A stretch of 35,579 bases of DNA from a virus: IMG/VR virus record IMGVR_UViG_3300003937_000380, positions 1-35,579 of that record. One strand, given 5' to 3'. Positions 3,417-34,025 of the stretch are shown in pieces. Position numbers and translations under genes: made by a program. Under the pieces are notes generated by a model. That model ran no database searches. It had not been told where the DNA came from and worked only from the letters and a program-made list of their open reading frames with translations. Position 1 is the stretch's first letter; every line of letters begins with the position of its first letter.

Positions 3417-6110
3417 TTACTTCTGGAACACCCAACAGCGAACGGCTACGCCGGCTCCGCTCATGTTGGTTCTGATGCTGCTGTTGACGGTCAGATTGGG
3501 GTCGAGCAGCTTGTGGCGCCGCGAGTCACGCAAGTACGTGCGCAGCAACTTGAGGTCCGGCACGGGCTGGCTGTGGTGCGCGGCCTTGGCCAGGAAGTCG
3601 TTTAGGTTGATAGCGATGCGCTGCGAGTCGCGCGAGTGGTTGACCACCGGCCGCTCTCCGTTGCCGACGCTTTCCAGGTACTCGTAGGTTTCCCAGAACT
3701 CGTTGACAAGGGGATGGTCAGCGCTGATCGCCGACTGACGTTCCAAGGCCATCGCCACCAGCTTCAGGCGGGTTTCTTCGACCATCACAGTGGGAATGTC
3801 GACCACCAGGCGCAGGCCATCGAGCAGCGCCAGCATCTGCGAGTGGTTCTTGATGAGGCGCTCCATGCGCAGTTCCTTGTTCTCGCGCAGCTTTGCTTCG
3901 TAGAAGCGCACGCGCTCCCCGAACTTCTCCAGCACCTTCTCCTCAGCGCGCACGGCTTTAATGAGGAAATAGCTCAGATCCTCGACCTGCAGAGCATTGA
4001 GGTTATCGGCCGCTTGGCGGCTCTCGGTGGTGGCATGCGGTTTGCGGAAATGCAGCTTGACGATACGGGTCATGATCGCCTCGCTGGCATCGACTGCCGC
4101 GTTCTGGCTGATGACGATGGTTCCCCGGAAAGGCGGCTCATAGGTTTCGTTGCCGCCGTTGCGCACACCTCGGGTGGCCAGCGTCCCGCCGCCGTAGTAG
4201 TCCTTCAGTTCATCCCACTCAAACGATTTGGAGTGCGCCTTATCCGGCGCATCACGGTCGGCTTCCAGCAGCACCACCGGCATGCCCGAGGTCTGGCCCA
4301 TGGCGCGGGCGCGGCCGGCCTTGGACGACTTGGCCGGGTCGAAGCCCTCGTAATCGCTGCGCGCCAGCAGCTTCCACAGGAAGGTCAGCAGCGTGGTCTT
4401 GCCGGCACCGGCTTCACCGGTGGCCTCCAAGAACGGGAAGGACTTGTGCGTGCTGCGGATCTGGTTGGCGAACAGCGAGCCGAACCAGAACACCAAGGCG
4501 ACCATGCCGTTGGTGCCAAAGCAGGTCCACAACCACTGCAACCACTCGGTGCGATAGCTGTCGTGGTCGCGCTGGATGTCCATGCGGATGGAGCGCTGGG
4601 TGGTCTTGATGCGCAGCTTCTTGAAGTCGAAGTAGTCCTCGGCGTTGGCTTGGGCAATCTCACCGTGACGCACGGCCAGGTCGCCAAAGATGTACGCCTG
4701 GTGATCGGGGGTGTAGCCCACGAAATCGACCGTGTGGACCTCTTTGATGTTGTCCAGCTGGATCTTCATGATCTGCAGCAGCTGGCTGGCAGTGCCGTCG
4801 AAGATGGCGCCGCGCGCAATGTGGCCCAGGCGGTCGCGGAAAGATGGCGCGTTGAGCGCTTGCGACGATGTGAAAGTGCCGGTGGCTGCTGCGCCGTCGT
4901 GAGGGAACTCCACGCGGAAGTAGTACCAGGCATCGTCGGTGACTTCGTTGCGCTGGTAGTACAGAGCCTTGGGGTAGCAGTTGGCGATCTCGCGCACGTT
5001 GCAGCAACCTCGGCGGATCTTCTCCACCGTCTCTTCGTCCAGGTCTTCCTCGATATCTTCCTTGCGGGTGGCCTGCTCGCGGCACAGCTTGTCGAACCGC
5101 ACCGGGTCGAACTCAAACCAGTAGAGCCGGTTGCGGTGGTCCAGGTGAAACTGCGTGCGCTGCTCGCGCCCGTAGATGATCAGGCCCTTGTCCATGGCAG
5201 TCTTGGCCAGCAGCAGCGCGCCGTTGTGCAGAGCCAGGTCCACGTCCTCCTGCCAGACAGCATCGCCGTCCTCCGCAGCTTGGGCGCGCAGATGCAGGTC
5301 ATTCCAATCGGTCTTCTTGTCGCCCGGCTGTTCGATCTGCGCCGCTTTGCAGGTGAAGCCCAGCTTCTCGGCCCGGCGCACGTGCTTGACGGTGTAGGCG
5401 CGGGCGCTCGGCTCGTTGTCCAAGCCCCACACCAGCGTGGGGAGGTCGTTGGGCCGGGCGTCGCGCAGTTCCTTGAGCGAAAGCTCGGGGTAGGCATTGC
5501 TGGACATGGCCGCGACGGCACAGACACCGCGCTGCAGCAGCGCGATGGCGTCGAAGATGCCTTCCACAATCCACACCTGGCGCGCGGTACGAAGTTGGTC
5601 CTTCGCGCCGGCGCCCCACCACACACCGGCGTAGCTTTCGCCGGGGGCAAAGCGGGCTTTCATCTTGCCGAAGCGGTGCGGGCGGTCGATCAGCCGTTCC
5701 CACCAGCCGCCTTTGACCAGGGGGAATCGGACAGTGGCGGTGCCTTCGCGCTTGGCCCGGTCGTAGTAGCTTTCCTGCGTATACAGGTCTCTCAGCGCCT
5801 TGACGTTGAAGCCGCGGCCGGTGGCCAGGTATGCGTCGGCGGCGGCATTGGGCGCCTGCTCCGTCTGCGGGTTGGTCTTGGAGTAGTCATCGAACAGGTC
5901 GTCGTACAGGTCGCGCACACGCACTTCCTGCCCGCACTTGGCCTGCCGGCCGCAGCGCAGCACCCACGGTGTCTGGAAGCTGGTGTAAAGCTCCTTCTTG
6001 CCGCAGTGCGGGCACTTGCCGCCGCGCATGTAGGGCGTGCCGTTGCGATGCTTGAGGCCATAGTCCCGCTCGATGCGCGACAGGACCTGCTGGCGAATTT
6101 CTTCCTGCAT
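3417..6110 (-). CDS. TOPRIM primase-helicase replication protein, 897 aa
   Basis: This is the replication protein of the phage. An N-terminal zinc ribbon (C33, C36, C53, C59) is followed by a TOPRIM core with its glutamate in WIVEGIFDAIAL (about E183) and an acidic site in WGLDNE (about D231), then DWNDLH. The C-terminal half is a P-loop helicase with Walker A GEAGAGKT at about 565-572 and Walker B-like VVLLEADRD at about 612-620. A sensor-like strand, TIVISQN, comes later. It likely synthesises primers and unwinds DNA. Phage P2 instead uses the rolling-circle nickase gpA, which I do not find here; a zinc-ribbon primase joined to a helicase recalls the alpha protein of satellite phage P4. The start at 6110 has only a weak AAGG upstream and sits 6 nt after the stop of a 13-aa ORF, so translation may be coupled. 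Confidence 0.88.
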   Translation of the reverse strand: MQEEIRQQVLSRIERDYGLKHRNGTPYMRGGKCPHCGKKELYTSFQTPWVLRCGRQAKCGQEVRVRDLYDDLFDDYSKTNPQTEQAPNAAADAYLATGRGFNVKALRDLYTQESYYDRAKREGTATVRFPLVKGGWWERLIDRPHRFGKMKARFAPGESYAGVWWGAGAKDQLRTARQVWIVEGIFDAIALLQRGVCAVAAMSSNAYPELSLKELRDARPNDLPTLVWGLDNEPSARAYTVKHVRRAEKLGFTCKAAQIEQPGDKKTDWNDLHLRAQAAEDGDAVWQEDVDLALHNGALLLAKTAMDKGLIIYGREQRTQFHLDHRNRLYWFEFDPVRFDKLCREQATRKEDIEEDLDEETVEKIRRGCCNVREIANCYPKALYYQRNEVTDDAWYYFRVEFPHDGAAATGTFTSSQALNAPSFRDRLGHIARGAIFDGTASQLLQIMKIQLDNIKEVHTVDFVGYTPDHQAYIFGDLAVRHGEIAQANAEDYFDFKKLRIKTTQRSIRMDIQRDHDSYRTEWLQWLWTCFGTNGMVALVFWFGSLFANQIRSTHKSFPFLEATGEAGAGKTTLLTFLWKLLARSDYEGFDPAKSSKAGRARAMGQTSGMPVVLLEADRDAPDKAHSKSFEWDELKDYYGGGTLATRGVRNGGNETYEPPFRGTIVISQNAAVDASEAIMTRIVKLHFRKPHATTESRQAADNLNALQVEDLSYFLIKAVRAEEKVLEKFGERVRFYEAKLRENKELRMERLIKNHSQMLALLDGLRLVVDIPTVMVEETRLKLVAMALERQSAISADHPLVNEFWETYEYLESVGNGERPVVNHSRDSQRIAINLNDFLAKAAHHSQPVPDLKLLRTYLRDSRRHKLLDPNLTVNSSIRTNMSGAGVAVRCWVFQK

Positions 6111-6569: not shown

Positions 6570-6877
6570 CAGTTCACCCCGCCCGGATAGTCGTTGCCGC
6601 TACGCAGCCACTGGAAGAAGCGGTCTGTCTCGCCCTTGGCGAGCAGGTAGACCACGGTCCCTGTCTGGATGCCTTCGGTGGCGGCGCGCTGCACATCCTT
6701 GGACTTGTGCGCGGAGACGGTAGCGGCCGCGTCCGATTCGACGTGTATCAATGCCAGATACAGCACGCCGCGTTGGTCGAAGGACGCGCGCAGGCCGAAG
6801 CCCGGCACCTGAGTTTCCAGCACGATCACCGGACGCATGGCGGCTTCGGGGATCACTACATTGGAGGCACCCGCCAT
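6569..6877 (-). CDS. hypothetical early protein, 102 aa
   Basis: A soluble protein with a beta-rich first half (RPVIVLETQVPGFGLRASF; GVLYLALIHVESD) and a helical C-terminus (TGTVVYLLAKGETDRFFQWL). It is coupled at both ends by TGATG overlaps. I recognise no family. It lies between the structured leader and the primase gene, so it is expressed early. Confidence 0.65.
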   Translation of the reverse strand: MAGASNVVIPEAAMRPVIVLETQVPGFGLRASFDQRGVLYLALIHVESDAAATVSAHKSKDVQRAATEGIQTGTVVYLLAKGETDRFFQWLRSGNDYPGGVN

Positions 6878-7119
6878 CAGTGCACCGCCTTGTCGTCGGT
6901 GCTGGGAGCGCCGCTATGGGCGTCACGGGTGGCGGTGTAGGCGGTGAGAATGTCGCCCAGGGTGATGGCGAGCGGGCACACGCCGACGGCGATCAGGCGC
7001 GCAATGAACGCCTGGTAGGCATCGTTGGGCCATTCGAGGGTGTCGGCGATCAGGCCGAAGGCGAACGAGATTTGACGCGCGGAAGGATTGCCGGGCGTGG
7101 AAGGGGCGCCAGAGGGCAT
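6877..7119 (-). CDS. first gene after the structured leader, hypothetical, 80 aa
   Basis: I start this gene at ATG 7119 because an AGGAG element precedes it at good spacing (7126-7133). The frame stays open up to 7449 only because the leader RNA lacks stops in that frame. The protein starts MPSGAPSTPGNPSARQIS and then has two hydrophobic helices (FAFGLIADTLEW; AFIARLIAVGVCPLAITLGDILTAYTA). No family recognised. Its ribosome-binding site is embedded in a 12-bp palindrome and lies beside one copy of the leader pairing element, so its translation is a prime candidate for RNA control. Confidence 0.65.
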   Translation of the reverse strand: MPSGAPSTPGNPSARQISFAFGLIADTLEWPNDAYQAFIARLIAVGVCPLAITLGDILTAYTATRDAHSGAPSTDDKAVH

Positions 7120-7131
7120 GGAGACGTCTCC
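7120..7131 (-). promoter_or_regulatory. palindrome overlapping the ribosome-binding site
   Basis: GGAGACGTCTCC is a perfect 12-bp palindrome directly before the ATG at 7119 and contains part of the AGGAG site. A related copy, GAGACGTCTT, lies at 7157-7166, so alternative pairings can hide or free the site. Confidence 0.6.
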
Positions 7132-7212
7132 TGTTGACGAGATTTGAAACCTCGGCGAGACGTCTTGAGTCGTCGCACCGAGGGTGTCGGGAGGCTCAAA
7201 ACCGGTCAACAG
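7131..7212 (-). promoter_or_regulatory. leader target site and RBS-proximal pairing element
   Basis: The minus strand reads CTGTTGACCGGTTTTGAG at 7212-7195, followed by CCTCC. Its 5' part can pair over 8 nt with GTCAACAG at 7138-7131, which touches the AGGAG site of the next gene. Its two halves can alternatively pair with the short RNA at 7335-7360. The two pairings use the same bases, so they exclude each other. A CCTCGG/CCGAGG stem lies between the elements. Confidence 0.6.
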
Positions 7213-7300
7213 TCCGGCGGGCAGTTTTCCCCTTGCGGGTGTTATATGGCTGCCGCCCTCCCGACGCAGGAAATCGTCGGTGCGCTCGAATTGCAGGCGC

Positions 7301-7330
7301 AAAAAAACCGCGTTGCTTTCGGGCGCGGTT
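7301..7330 (-). terminator. intrinsic terminator in the early-operon leader
   Basis: On the minus strand AACCGCG, an 11-nt spacer, then CGCGGTT runs into a T7 tract: a textbook intrinsic terminator. It lies inside the leader upstream of the replication genes, so it either ends a short RNA or attenuates the operon. Confidence 0.85.
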
Positions 7331-7367
7331 GCCGCTGTTGAGTCGGAGTTTTGAGTCTCCTTGCGGC
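7301..7367 (-). ncRNA. candidate CI/C4-like antisense regulatory RNA, about 65 nt
   Basis: The RNA folds with an outer stem GCCGC/GCGGC (7363-7367 with 7331-7335), an inner hairpin GGAG-ACTCAAAA-CTCC, a single-stranded CGACTCAACA and the terminator stem. The loop CTCAAAAC (7355-7348) and the element TCAACAG (7341-7335) are both complementary to a site at 7195-7212, in the correct antiparallel order, with GGAG adding pairing to CTCC at 7193-7190. In phage P4 a similar RNA, made from the leader of the operon for the alpha primase-helicase, pairs with leader sites to stop transcription; C4 RNA of P1 controls ant. This operon also encodes a primase-helicase. Presence and function are inferred from sequence only. 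Confidence 0.6.
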
Positions 7368-7369
7368 AG

Positions 7370-7398
7370 ACAATGCTCTCCCTGCCCGGCGAAGTCAA
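7370..7398 (-). promoter_or_regulatory. putative leader promoter
   Basis: TTGACT (7398-7393) lies 17 bp from CATTGT (7375-7370). The -35 is near consensus and the -10 is weak. Transcription would start near 7364, right at the folded RNA. Confidence 0.45.
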
Positions 7399-7445
7399 GG
7401 GGAAATGACGGAAAGTGTGGGAATGGGATTCAGCAGCGAACAGGT

Positions 7446-7652
7446 TCATACGGACACCTGTGCAATGGCGACAGAGGGCAGCTGCTGGTAGTCGCCACCG
7501 GCGGCGATGTGGGCTTCGACCTGGGCGCGCAGCTCGGCCGCCTTGCGGGCCTTTTCGGTGTACGGAACGTATTCAACGCCACTCGGGCTGGTGACAAAGT
7601 TCGGCTGGGTGGCGGTAGACCATCCGTCACGCTGGGTTTTGTGTCGCATCAT
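7446..7652 (-). CDS. small hypothetical early protein, 68 aa
   Basis: The protein starts MMRHKTQRDGWSTATQPNFV and contains GVEYVPYTEKARKAAELRAQVEAHIAAGG, a short helical domain. AGGGAG lies 8 nt before the ATG at 7652; an in-frame GTG at 7661 overlaps that site and is unlikely. It follows ogr after a 66-bp gap. No family recognised. Confidence 0.6.
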   Translation of the reverse strand: MMRHKTQRDGWSTATQPNFVTSPSGVEYVPYTEKARKAAELRAQVEAHIAAGGDYQQLPSVAIAQVSV

Positions 7653-7718
7653 GCACAGCACTCCCTAGCCGGCGGCCGCAGCCGCCAGGTCAGTTCGTTG
7701 TGGAAGGGGAAAGGTGAA

Positions 7719-8063
7719 TCAGACGGCGGGCAAGTCGCCGCCGTCAGGTGGAAGCGCTTCAATAGCGTCGATCCAGTCGATTTGCAGTTCGCCCTGATCC
7801 TGCTTCCAGCGCGTCTGCAGCATCGTCCGCTGGTAGTAGGGTGTCGGCGGCAGCTCGCAGGCTGGAGCGCTAGGGAGGCCGCTGGGGCTGGCGAGGTTGG
7901 TCAGTTCCGAACTGCCGGTGTAGGTAGCCCCACACATGGGGTTCGGGCAGACATATGCCTCAGTGCGCAGGAACGGGTGTTGCAACGCGCTGGTGCGCTT
8001 TACCAGCCGGGCATTGCAGGCAGGGCAGCGGAACACGGCGCGCTGTCCAACGGCGGCACTCAT
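7719..8063 (-). CDS. ogr: Ogr/Delta-type late transcription activator, 114 aa
   Basis: The N-terminal half has the zinc finger of the P2 Ogr / P4 Delta family: C13-x2-C16, then 22 residues, C39-x4-C44 (CPAC ... CPNPMC), with EAYVCPNPMCGATY typical of the family. Ogr binds upstream of late promoters and contacts the RNA polymerase alpha subunit to switch on capsid, tail and lysis genes. At 114 aa it is longer than P2 Ogr (72 aa), with a C-terminal tail that I do not recognise. The start overlaps the stop of the gp16-like gene (ATGA), so it is made as an early protein. In P2 itself ogr lies downstream of gene D. Confidence 0.85.
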   Translation of the reverse strand: MSAAVGQRAVFRCPACNARLVKRTSALQHPFLRTEAYVCPNPMCGATYTGSSELTNLASPSGLPSAPACELPPTPYYQRTMLQTRWKQDQGELQIDWIDAIEALPPDGGDLPAV

Positions 8064-32765: not shown

Positions 32766-33458
32766 TCAGCCATCACTCTGGTCTGGACCGCGCAGCAAGC
32801 GGTTGCTGGTGGCCAAGGGCGTCACTCCCAATGCTTCCCTGGTGGGCATTGGAATGCCAAGGGTTGTGTTGACCTGATACAGCTGCCAATAGGCCTGGCG
32901 GCGTTCGTCGTCGTTCGTGGCGGCGGTCAGCGCACGGGAGGCCTTGTAGGCCTGTTCGTGGAGCATGATCTTGTCTTTGACGCGCAGACCCCGTGCGAAC
33001 TCCAGATCCTCAGCCAAGGGGGCCACGTAGGGCTCGCGCAGCCTGGCTTCCATCGCGTTGAACGCTGAGATGTAGGCCAGCTTGAAGGCGAGCGCCTGCC
33101 TGCCCGTGAAGCCCATCGCCAACAGGGCGAACCCGTCACGGGTCAGGTTGTAGATCGGATCGCGCCGGATGGCGCCACTTCCGATGCTTACCTCCACCTC
33201 TGCCGCCTCGAAGAGATCCTCGGGGACCATCAGCCCAATTTTGGGCTGATGGTCGTCAGCATCCGATTGTTCATCCACGTCCGCCCGGTCTTGCCACTGA
33301 ACGTGCTTCCTCAAGTCGCTCAATAGGCTCTCTATGGCCCGCAGTACATGGCTGTGGCGCTTGTCGAAGAATGCAGCCACATCCGTGCTGGTGGTGAAGG
33401 CAGAGCCGGTGGGGGACACCCGGACAACCGGAATGGGGAGCTGATCGGTAGTGGTCAT
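32766..33458 (-). CDS. rha: Rha-family phage regulatory protein, 230 aa
   Basis: The sequence from ATG 33458 has the pRha signature: TSTDVAAFFDKRHSHVLRAIESLLSDL, YNLTRDGFALLAMGFTGRQALAFKLAYISAFNAMEA. Rha is found in lambdoid and P22-like phages as a regulator or antirepressor-like protein. The C-terminus is helical (LEFARGLRVKDKIMLHEQAYKASRALTAATND). Its ATG overlaps the stop of a 22-codon leader ORF (ATGA). The much longer open frame upstream to 33824 is leader RNA, so I reject that start. Confidence 0.82.
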   Translation of the reverse strand: MTTTDQLPIPVVRVSPTGSAFTTSTDVAAFFDKRHSHVLRAIESLLSDLRKHVQWQDRADVDEQSDADDHQPKIGLMVPEDLFEAAEVEVSIGSGAIRRDPIYNLTRDGFALLAMGFTGRQALAFKLAYISAFNAMEARLREPYVAPLAEDLEFARGLRVKDKIMLHEQAYKASRALTAATNDDERRQAYWQLYQVNTTLGIPMPTREALGVTPLATSNRLLRGPDQSDG

Positions 33459-33523
33459 CCCCCATTTTGCCCTCTGCCCCCTGGCGTGCGCACTCGTCTC
33501 CCCGCCACGCCTGCGCACTTCAT
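33455..33523 (-). CDS. 22-aa leader ORF overlapping the Rha start
   Basis: ATG 33523 opens a short, basic Gly-rich frame that ends TGA at 33455, overlapping ATG 33458 by 4 bp. No clear ribosome-binding site precedes it. In P1 the small icd gene overlaps ant in a similar way and is the target of C4 RNA, so this frame could couple translation to Rha. Confidence 0.35.
   Translation of the reverse strand: MKCAGVAGRRVRTPGGRGQNGG
33499..33511 (-). other. candidate cos site
   Basis: The minus strand reads GGCGTGGCGGGGA, which equals the first 13 bases of the phage 186 cohesive end and differs by one base from that of P2 (GGCGAGGCGGGGA...). These two sequences are recalled from memory. In P2 cos lies next to Q on the far side from P. 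Here the stretch between the Q cluster and the integrase is the matching location. The remaining bases of the cohesive end do not match. Confidence 0.4.
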
Positions 33524-33578
33524 AGGGTGCTTTTTCTGCACTGCCTGCAGCAAGGCCCAGCCCAGGCCCTGTATGGCG

Positions 33579-33760
33579 TTCTCCGGGGTTCCCAGGCACT
33601 GGCTGGCCCTGCGGTTCCCTGCGCGGAAAGGGGCGATTCAGCAGCGCGGTGGGGGCGTTGTGTCCCCCGTGCTTCCCGTTTGGGGGATGGGGGGTGTCCG
33701 GAGAATGGCAATTTCTGCGACCCCACTCGCGAGGTCTGGGTAAGTGTTTGAATTTGCTGG
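33579..33760 (-). ncRNA. Rha leader with C4-like antisense element
   Basis: A hairpin can form from GTGGGGT to ACCCC (around 33725-33690) with the loop TTCTCCGG (33705-33698), complementary to CCGGAGAA at 33586-33579 further down the same leader. A second stem CCCCC/GGGGG follows. A loop that targets a downstream leader site is the layout of C4 RNA, which controls the P1 antirepressor. The protein here is also an antirepressor-like regulator. Only 8 nt of complementarity is seen, so this is tentative. Confidence 0.4.
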
Positions 33761-34025
33761 GGAAGCGAGATTGCAGTGGATGATAATTTAGGGCAATTTT
33801 CTGGAGGGCGTAATGCAATGTCATTGATTTATAAGGACATTTGTCTGCCGCCCGGTTGCGGTCAGATTGTGCAATCTGGTTGCTCTAAGGTTGCCCTATT
33901 GTTGCTATTGAGAAAGTTATTTAAGTAATTGATTTTATTGCGTTAATCTCCATCTGAAATGTCTGGTTGCAGAAATTGCGGTGTTCCGATTGGCACGACA
34001 TTAATTCCAATTTAAGGGGCGGACT
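33720..34025. other. AT-rich intergenic region
   Basis: This stretch between the Rha leader and the 114-aa gene is strongly AT-rich in a GC-rich phage. I see no convincing protein gene. It holds the inverted repeat at 33863-33878 and several TAA/TTA tracts that could be promoters. It may be a recent insertion or a control region. Confidence 0.5.
33863..33878. promoter_or_regulatory. inverted repeat, possible operator
   Basis: CAGATTG-TG-CAATCTG is a perfect dyad with 7-bp arms. GCAATCTG occurs again near 34026. It differs from the repressor operators at 8418-8457, so another regulator, possibly Rha, may bind. Confidence 0.4.

Follow-up and report, generated by a model that had tools for sequence, protein, structure and literature searches.

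The leader on the minus strand of the window at 7400-7119 (the window being the whole stretch of 35,579 nucleotides that was analysed) very probably functions as a control element of the C4 antisense RNA type, built on the sRNA-Xcc1 family, that represses, in trans and via target sites C at the start of gene 1, the short operon of gene 1, genes 2 and 3 and a primase. The Xcc1 RNA is flanked by two target pairs, A1/A2 upstream and C1/C2 downstream, and in related phages the recognition modules B1/B2 of the RNA and both target pairs change in concert. The record represents a P2-like phage; among named phages, Stenotrophomonas phage Smp131 (Peduoviridae) is closest to it, with 84% identity over the leader. 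Smp131 carries the same leader element. The features are as follows.

7370-7398, minus strand: likely promoter, with TTGACT at 7398-7393, a 17-nt spacer and CATTGT at 7375-7370
7348-7355, minus strand: target A1, CTCAAAAC, within the loop closed by a GGAG/CTCC stem; pairs with B2; counterpart of P1 a1
7335-7342, minus strand: target A2, CTCAACAG, first base mismatched; pairs with B1; counterpart of P1 b1
7301-7329, minus strand: intrinsic terminator after the A site and ahead of the Xcc1 RNA, from sequence, hairpin and T run
7178-7265, minus strand: sRNA-Xcc1 RNA (RF02221, by cmscan), a three-way junction with two hairpins
7205-7212, minus strand: recognition module B1, CTGTTGAC, located in the hairpin-2 loop; corresponds to C4 b'
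7195-7202, minus strand: recognition module B2, GTTTTGAG, in the strand from hairpin 2 to the closing stem; corresponds to C4 a'
7162-7169, minus strand: target C1, CTCAAGAC; pairs with B2 via one G-U; counterpart of P1 a2
7131-7138, minus strand: target C2, GTCAACAG, overlapping the start of the Shine-Dalgarno sequence; pairs with B1; counterpart of P1 b2
7128-7132, minus strand: Shine-Dalgarno sequence AGGAG of gene 1, from sequence
6877-7119, minus strand: gene 1, 80 aa, ATG at 7119; match to phrog_17048, 'anti-repressor'
3417-6110, minus strand: DNA primase; phrog_1139, 1153.7 bits; Toprim_2

The RNA at 7265-7178 was recognised by cmscan as a full-length member (1-87) of RF02221 with 75.7 bits and an E value of 2.9e-12, the gathering cut-off of the family being 53 bits, and it is the sole Rfam match in the whole window. 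In Xanthomonas, sRNA-Xcc1 has been characterized by northern blot and end mapping as a discrete RNA of 88 nt (PMC2996969), and homologues were detected in Xylella (PMC12189769). An earlier note on this DNA had pointed out segments A1, A2, B1, B2 and C2, all of which were located on the minus strand, with C2 adjoining AGGAG and the ATG at 7119; C1 (7169-7162) is an additional site. The note had taken the hairpin at 7335-7355 for the active RNA and 7195-7212 for its target. Since the conserved family covers 7265-7178, these roles are exchanged: 7195-7212 is the recognition segment, 7335-7355 is a target, and the active RNA most likely is 7265-7178. The nested hairpin that had been proposed around A1 survives in part, as the inner GGAG/CTCC stem with A1 in its loop does fold, whereas the outer GCCGC/GCGGC stem is not conserved (the segment reads GCGCC in leaders L048, L133 and L136, and GCTGC in L043 and L097); the 5' arm of that outer stem sits roughly at the expected transcription start. 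Transcription would begin at about 7363. The TTGAC of the promoter is invariant in all close leaders, its second hexamer, CATTGT, is weak, and a consensus promoter scan of the leader reported no promoter. The terminator expected behind the A hairpin is present at 7329-7301, where AACCGCG, a loop of 11 nt and CGCGGTT are followed by a T run; its hairpin has a folding energy of -8.7 kcal/mol, and T7 and most of the arms are invariant in the 30-leader alignment of relatives. A simple terminator scan of the leader reported none, because its loop limit is 8 nt.

The main evidence comes from an alignment of 30 distinct leaders of related phages, which was evaluated with 500 shuffles and with controls in which pairing partners were slid along the alignment. 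The stretches that separate the sites are well conserved, while the sites themselves are hypervariable and change together. For A1-B2, 99.2% of the cells are paired and 45 cells have changed on both sides, with none of 500 shuffles as good, and sliding the partners by one to three columns leaves 23-56% paired. The corresponding values are 97.7% for A2-B1 (five pairs with changes on both sides, 38 cells), 98.8% for B2-C1 (44 cells changed on both sides) and 91.8% for B1-C2 (six pairs, 44 cells), the shortfall of the latter being mostly due to a short TGACT allele that is misaligned by a gap. In none of the four helices did any of the 500 shuffles match the observed percentage paired or the covariation score. 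Thus, all four A-B and B-C pairings covary, far beyond chance. The alleles of B1 in these leaders are CTGTTGAC, CTGTATCC, CTGACTC, CTGTGATC, CTACGTTC and one further form, and those of B2 are GTTTTGAG, GTTTCTAG, GTTCTTAG, GTTTCTAC, GTTCTTAA, GTTTCTAA, GTTCTTAC and GTTTCGAA; the A and C alleles track them, and AGGAGACGT at the Shine-Dalgarno site of gene 1 is invariant in 30 of 30. B1 and B2 alleles reassort, with at least 14 changes of B1 and at least 17 of B2 on a tree of the downstream genes, so the pattern is not the result of one inherited change. These counts are rough, since the tree has poor resolution (8 of 27 inner branches starred) and since many of the changes may be attributable to recombination of the leader as a unit. 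As to the comparison of homologous leaders that the earlier note had proposed, loop and target are variable but change jointly, and its suggestion that one segment has two alternative targets, one before the terminator and one at the Shine-Dalgarno sequence, is borne out by covariation of both. This natural series of alleles makes it possible to test RNA specificity and immunity groups directly.

The similarity of the sites might in principle be caused by an overlapping coding frame, as the ORF at 7449-6877, which is one gene in the Smp131 annotation, runs through the leader without a stop in 24 of 30 relatives. Between the RNA and the start codon, however, lie 143 to 146 nt, so that three reading phases occur among the relatives, and a coding constraint would not yield two-sided base-pair changes at four sites. 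This explanation is extremely improbable, and the phase differences led us to discard the frame as a cause.

Folding energies support the pairings more modestly than covariation, which is by far the stronger evidence that the complementarity noted earlier is real. The B-A duplex has -18.8 kcal/mol versus a shuffled mean of -9.0 (P 0.002), and the B-C duplex -20.2 versus -12.7 kcal/mol (P 0.011), with modest cofolding gains of about 3-6 kcal/mol. For the isolated RNA, a rod (-35.8 kcal/mol) and the junction (-35.6 kcal/mol) are nearly equal. Folded as a whole, the 257-nt leader has A in a helix with B (z -3.8); such a fold would leave C free and fits a switch in which self-pairing turns the operon on and pairing in trans turns it off. 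The same fold would also suit an attenuator acting exclusively in cis, in which A-B pairing within one transcript frees or hides the start site and no trans-acting RNA is involved, and chromosomal copies of the element indeed keep A and B in the absence of C. We consider this unlikely, since C1 and C2 covary with B, although a switch based on A and B alone would not require it, and since members of the family are known as discrete RNAs (PMC2996969).

Control by an antisense RNA acting in trans closely resembles what is described for phages P1 and P7, where C4 represses ant and differing modules cause heteroimmunity (PMC12197685), and where the structure of C4 and its processing by RNase P have been described (PMC5320573), the 5' processing of C4 leaving about 77 nt; a 'c4-a1b1' motif appears beside C4 in a published listing (PMC2864571). 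The annotated P1 order a1, b1, c4, a2, b2, icd equals that of the window, as does the number of sites. The spacing is also similar: 14 nt between the starts of a1 and b1 (13 for A1-A2), 67 nt from the end of b1 to the RNA (70 from A2), 29 nt between the starts of a2 and b2 (31 for C1-C2) and about 11 nt from the end of b2 to the start codon (12 in the window). Both C4 and the window RNA have two modules, located in the hairpin-2 loop and the junction strand, and in the window these match A1/A2 upstream and C1/C2 at the start site. C4 loci fetched for RF01695 have recognition at the same two RNA positions as Xcc1. The upstream sites a1 and b1 are marked 'putative' in the P1 record, and the covariation of their counterparts provides comparative evidence of selection on this pair. 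There are differences as well. The RNA core of the window has another sequence than C4, and the RF01695 model, of which the earlier note had suggested a scan, finds nothing in 6800-7800 even when hits up to E 10 are admitted, nor anywhere in the record at E <= 1 (cut-off 45), so that by that family's own model the window RNA is not RF01695. On two Xcc1 RNAs RF01695 scored weakly (19.2 and 16.1 bits). Furthermore, gene 1 is not a recognised Ant, although across the Xcc1 family the genes downstream fit the antirepressor type known from C4, and unlike P1 and P7 the window has an intrinsic terminator clearly after the A site. RF02221 thus probably works like C4 and may be a sister family of RF01695; the heteroimmunity logic of C4 would then extend to P2-like, lambdoid and other phages whose RNA has another core.

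A second precedent is the CI RNA of satellite phage P4 (seqA - seqB - seqC), whose targets flank it in the leader of the replication genes, seqA on the upstream and seqC on the downstream side (PMC4825925). Here the likeness is one of layout only, with an RNA between upstream and downstream targets before replication genes; P4 acts by premature termination as described, whereas the window has a clear target at the start site. The location in the leader of a replication operon, as claimed earlier, agrees with the primase (phrog_1139) downstream, and the proposed P1 C4 or P4 CI logic is supported by the layout and by the concerted variation of the sites. In the Salmonella prophage Gifsy-1, IsrK has been called a structural homologue of P4 SeqA, and its pairing activates orf45/anrP (PMC4825925). 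Like the A site, it lies ahead of a phage regulatory gene and combines a promoter-proximal hairpin and terminator with complementarity to the RNA downstream, but it is an activator with a longer pairing of about 30 nt. By this precedent, a short terminated A RNA (about 7363-7301), which has a hairpin, both pairing segments and a terminator, could be the main regulator by binding B on the long RNA and activating gene 1. That would leave C1 and C2 at the start site unexplained, and the isrK model RF01394 gave no hit in 6800-7800 at E values up to 10; we regard such a main role as quite improbable. As a secondary anti-antisense that relieves repression, the A RNA can coexist with repression by Xcc1 via C.

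Repression in trans by the Xcc1 RNA would proceed as follows. A transcript started by the promoter near 7398-7370 would first expose A1 and A2 and then the terminator at 7329-7301, where it would either stop or be read through to yield the Xcc1 RNA and then C1 and C2. The processed RNA (7265-7178) would be released from the transcript, and its B1 and B2 would pair in trans with C2 and C1, respectively, blocking translation of gene 1 and of the operon behind it. We infer such processing, action in trans and negative effect, and a role in immunity would follow by analogy with C4: the operon would be kept off in a lysogen, and likewise in any phage of the same barcode that enters it. On the nascent leader, B-A pairing might either increase termination, as with P4 seqA, or let A titrate B. 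On the sign of this effect the analogies diverge, since P4 suggests more termination and IsrK suggests that a short A RNA removes B; promotion of termination by A pairing has, in our estimate, slightly less than an even chance of being correct.

A scan of IMG/VR for the Xcc1 core AYACCCGNAAGGGGAA yielded at least 119 viral contigs, and RF02221 was recognised in all 50 records tested among the matches listed, 47 of them above the cut-off. At each of the four sites, 69-76% of 95 viral loci have exact complements of at least 7 nt, as compared to 9-13% when the RNAs are swapped among loci, and the strict layout with both A and C occurs in 58 of the 95 versus 0.4 expected. In 53 of 82 loci, the phage RNA is a fit for the two C sites of its own leader, whereas the RNA of another phage with differing modules fits both in 32 of 6588 combinations. 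Among 51 proteins encoded downstream of the C site, P22_AR_C, Rha, KilA-N, ORF6N, AntA, Bro-N and P22_AR_N are matched by 5-12 each, which suggests that the gene controlled across phages is usually of the antirepressor type. In some phages (L056, L120), one genome holds two Xcc1 RNAs with different modules, and the record behind L022 has five RF02221 matches.

For gene 1 itself, the putative antirepressor label comes from one PHROG, phrog_17048, of which it matches only positions 103-177 of 182. The protein was aligned with 25 relatives. It has no Pfam relative, and its predicted structure consists of three helices (mean pLDDT 76) with no significant PDB match. In phrog_17048 and the Smp131 annotation, gene 1 begins far upstream (window 7449-6877). 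The covarying site at the Shine-Dalgarno sequence points to ATG 7119 as the start, and the first hundred positions of phrog_17048, about half of the profile, appear to be translated RNA leader. The start and stop codons of genes 2 and 3 overlap. A separate Rha/Ant-type protein is encoded at 32766-33824 (Phage_pRha, 6.7e-23), near the integrase and without an Xcc1 RNA of its own.

The Xcc1 RNA behind the A hairpin and terminator is also found in genomes of Xanthomonas, Pseudoxanthomonas, Rhodanobacter, Lysobacter and Dyella, where a first, narrower pattern search had given no matches. These chromosomal loci have matches of 7-10 nt to A1 and A2, and C-type targets at start sites were not found among them; 79 of 106 genome loci are A-only, versus 4.5 expected. 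The A-B contact is therefore under selection on its own, and a translation block cannot be the function of the whole family. Seven Xanthomonadaceae genomes (L292-L345) carry 4-12 Xcc1 copies each, with mostly differing barcodes. Identical barcodes within one genome occur in 1 pair versus 4.5 expected (P 0.03), which is only suggestive because orthologues between genomes confound the shuffle. The possibility that host RNAs are aimed at phages was dismissed, as chromosomal RNAs fit phage C sites in just 2 of 6478 combinations. Downstream of the chromosomal RNAs, 29 of 35 genes are of the XAC0095 family (NCBIfam name T3SS_XAC0095).

In integron cassettes, sRNA-Xcc1 was found upstream of symE (PMC12444791). 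Xanthomonas hortorum pv. cynarae likewise has an Xcc1 RNA before a SymE toxin gene (L142), in the same arrangement of A site, terminator and RNA with matching modules as in the window, the A1 and A2 matches lying 83-94 nt upstream. These sites are a candidate target for the context of the type sRNA-Xcc1. The leader sites of the window and its relatives provide a precise, testable target for an RNA family listed as a virulence-linked sRNA and reported in Xanthomonas, Xylella and others. Before symE or XAC0095-family genes, unlike in the window, C sites are absent. We found no verified sRNA-Xcc1 target in the literature compared, to which a 2011 study by Chen and colleagues did not belong. Published predictions do name many host genes (PMC2996969), and expression in X. 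campestris under HrpG/HrpX control has been reported, as cited in PMC12189769, which would fit a general sRNA that acts in trans on host (virulence) targets, its complementarity to the leader being incidental. This is very improbable in view of the covariation, the hypervariable modules matching their own leader, in the symE cassette as well.

The chances are about equal for and against a broader reading, in which sRNA-Xcc1 would be a large class of bipartite barcode RNAs and not primarily a virulence sRNA. In phages, these would define immunity groups via two independently swappable modules; on chromosomes, multiple, mutually insulated copies would exert control only via the upstream A site and terminator before XAC0095-family or symE genes. 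If so, the upstream a1/b1 site would represent the core interaction of the whole group. A natural control is provided by a Pseudoxanthomonas copy (L325), in which the RNA is kept and both the A site and the terminator are lost.
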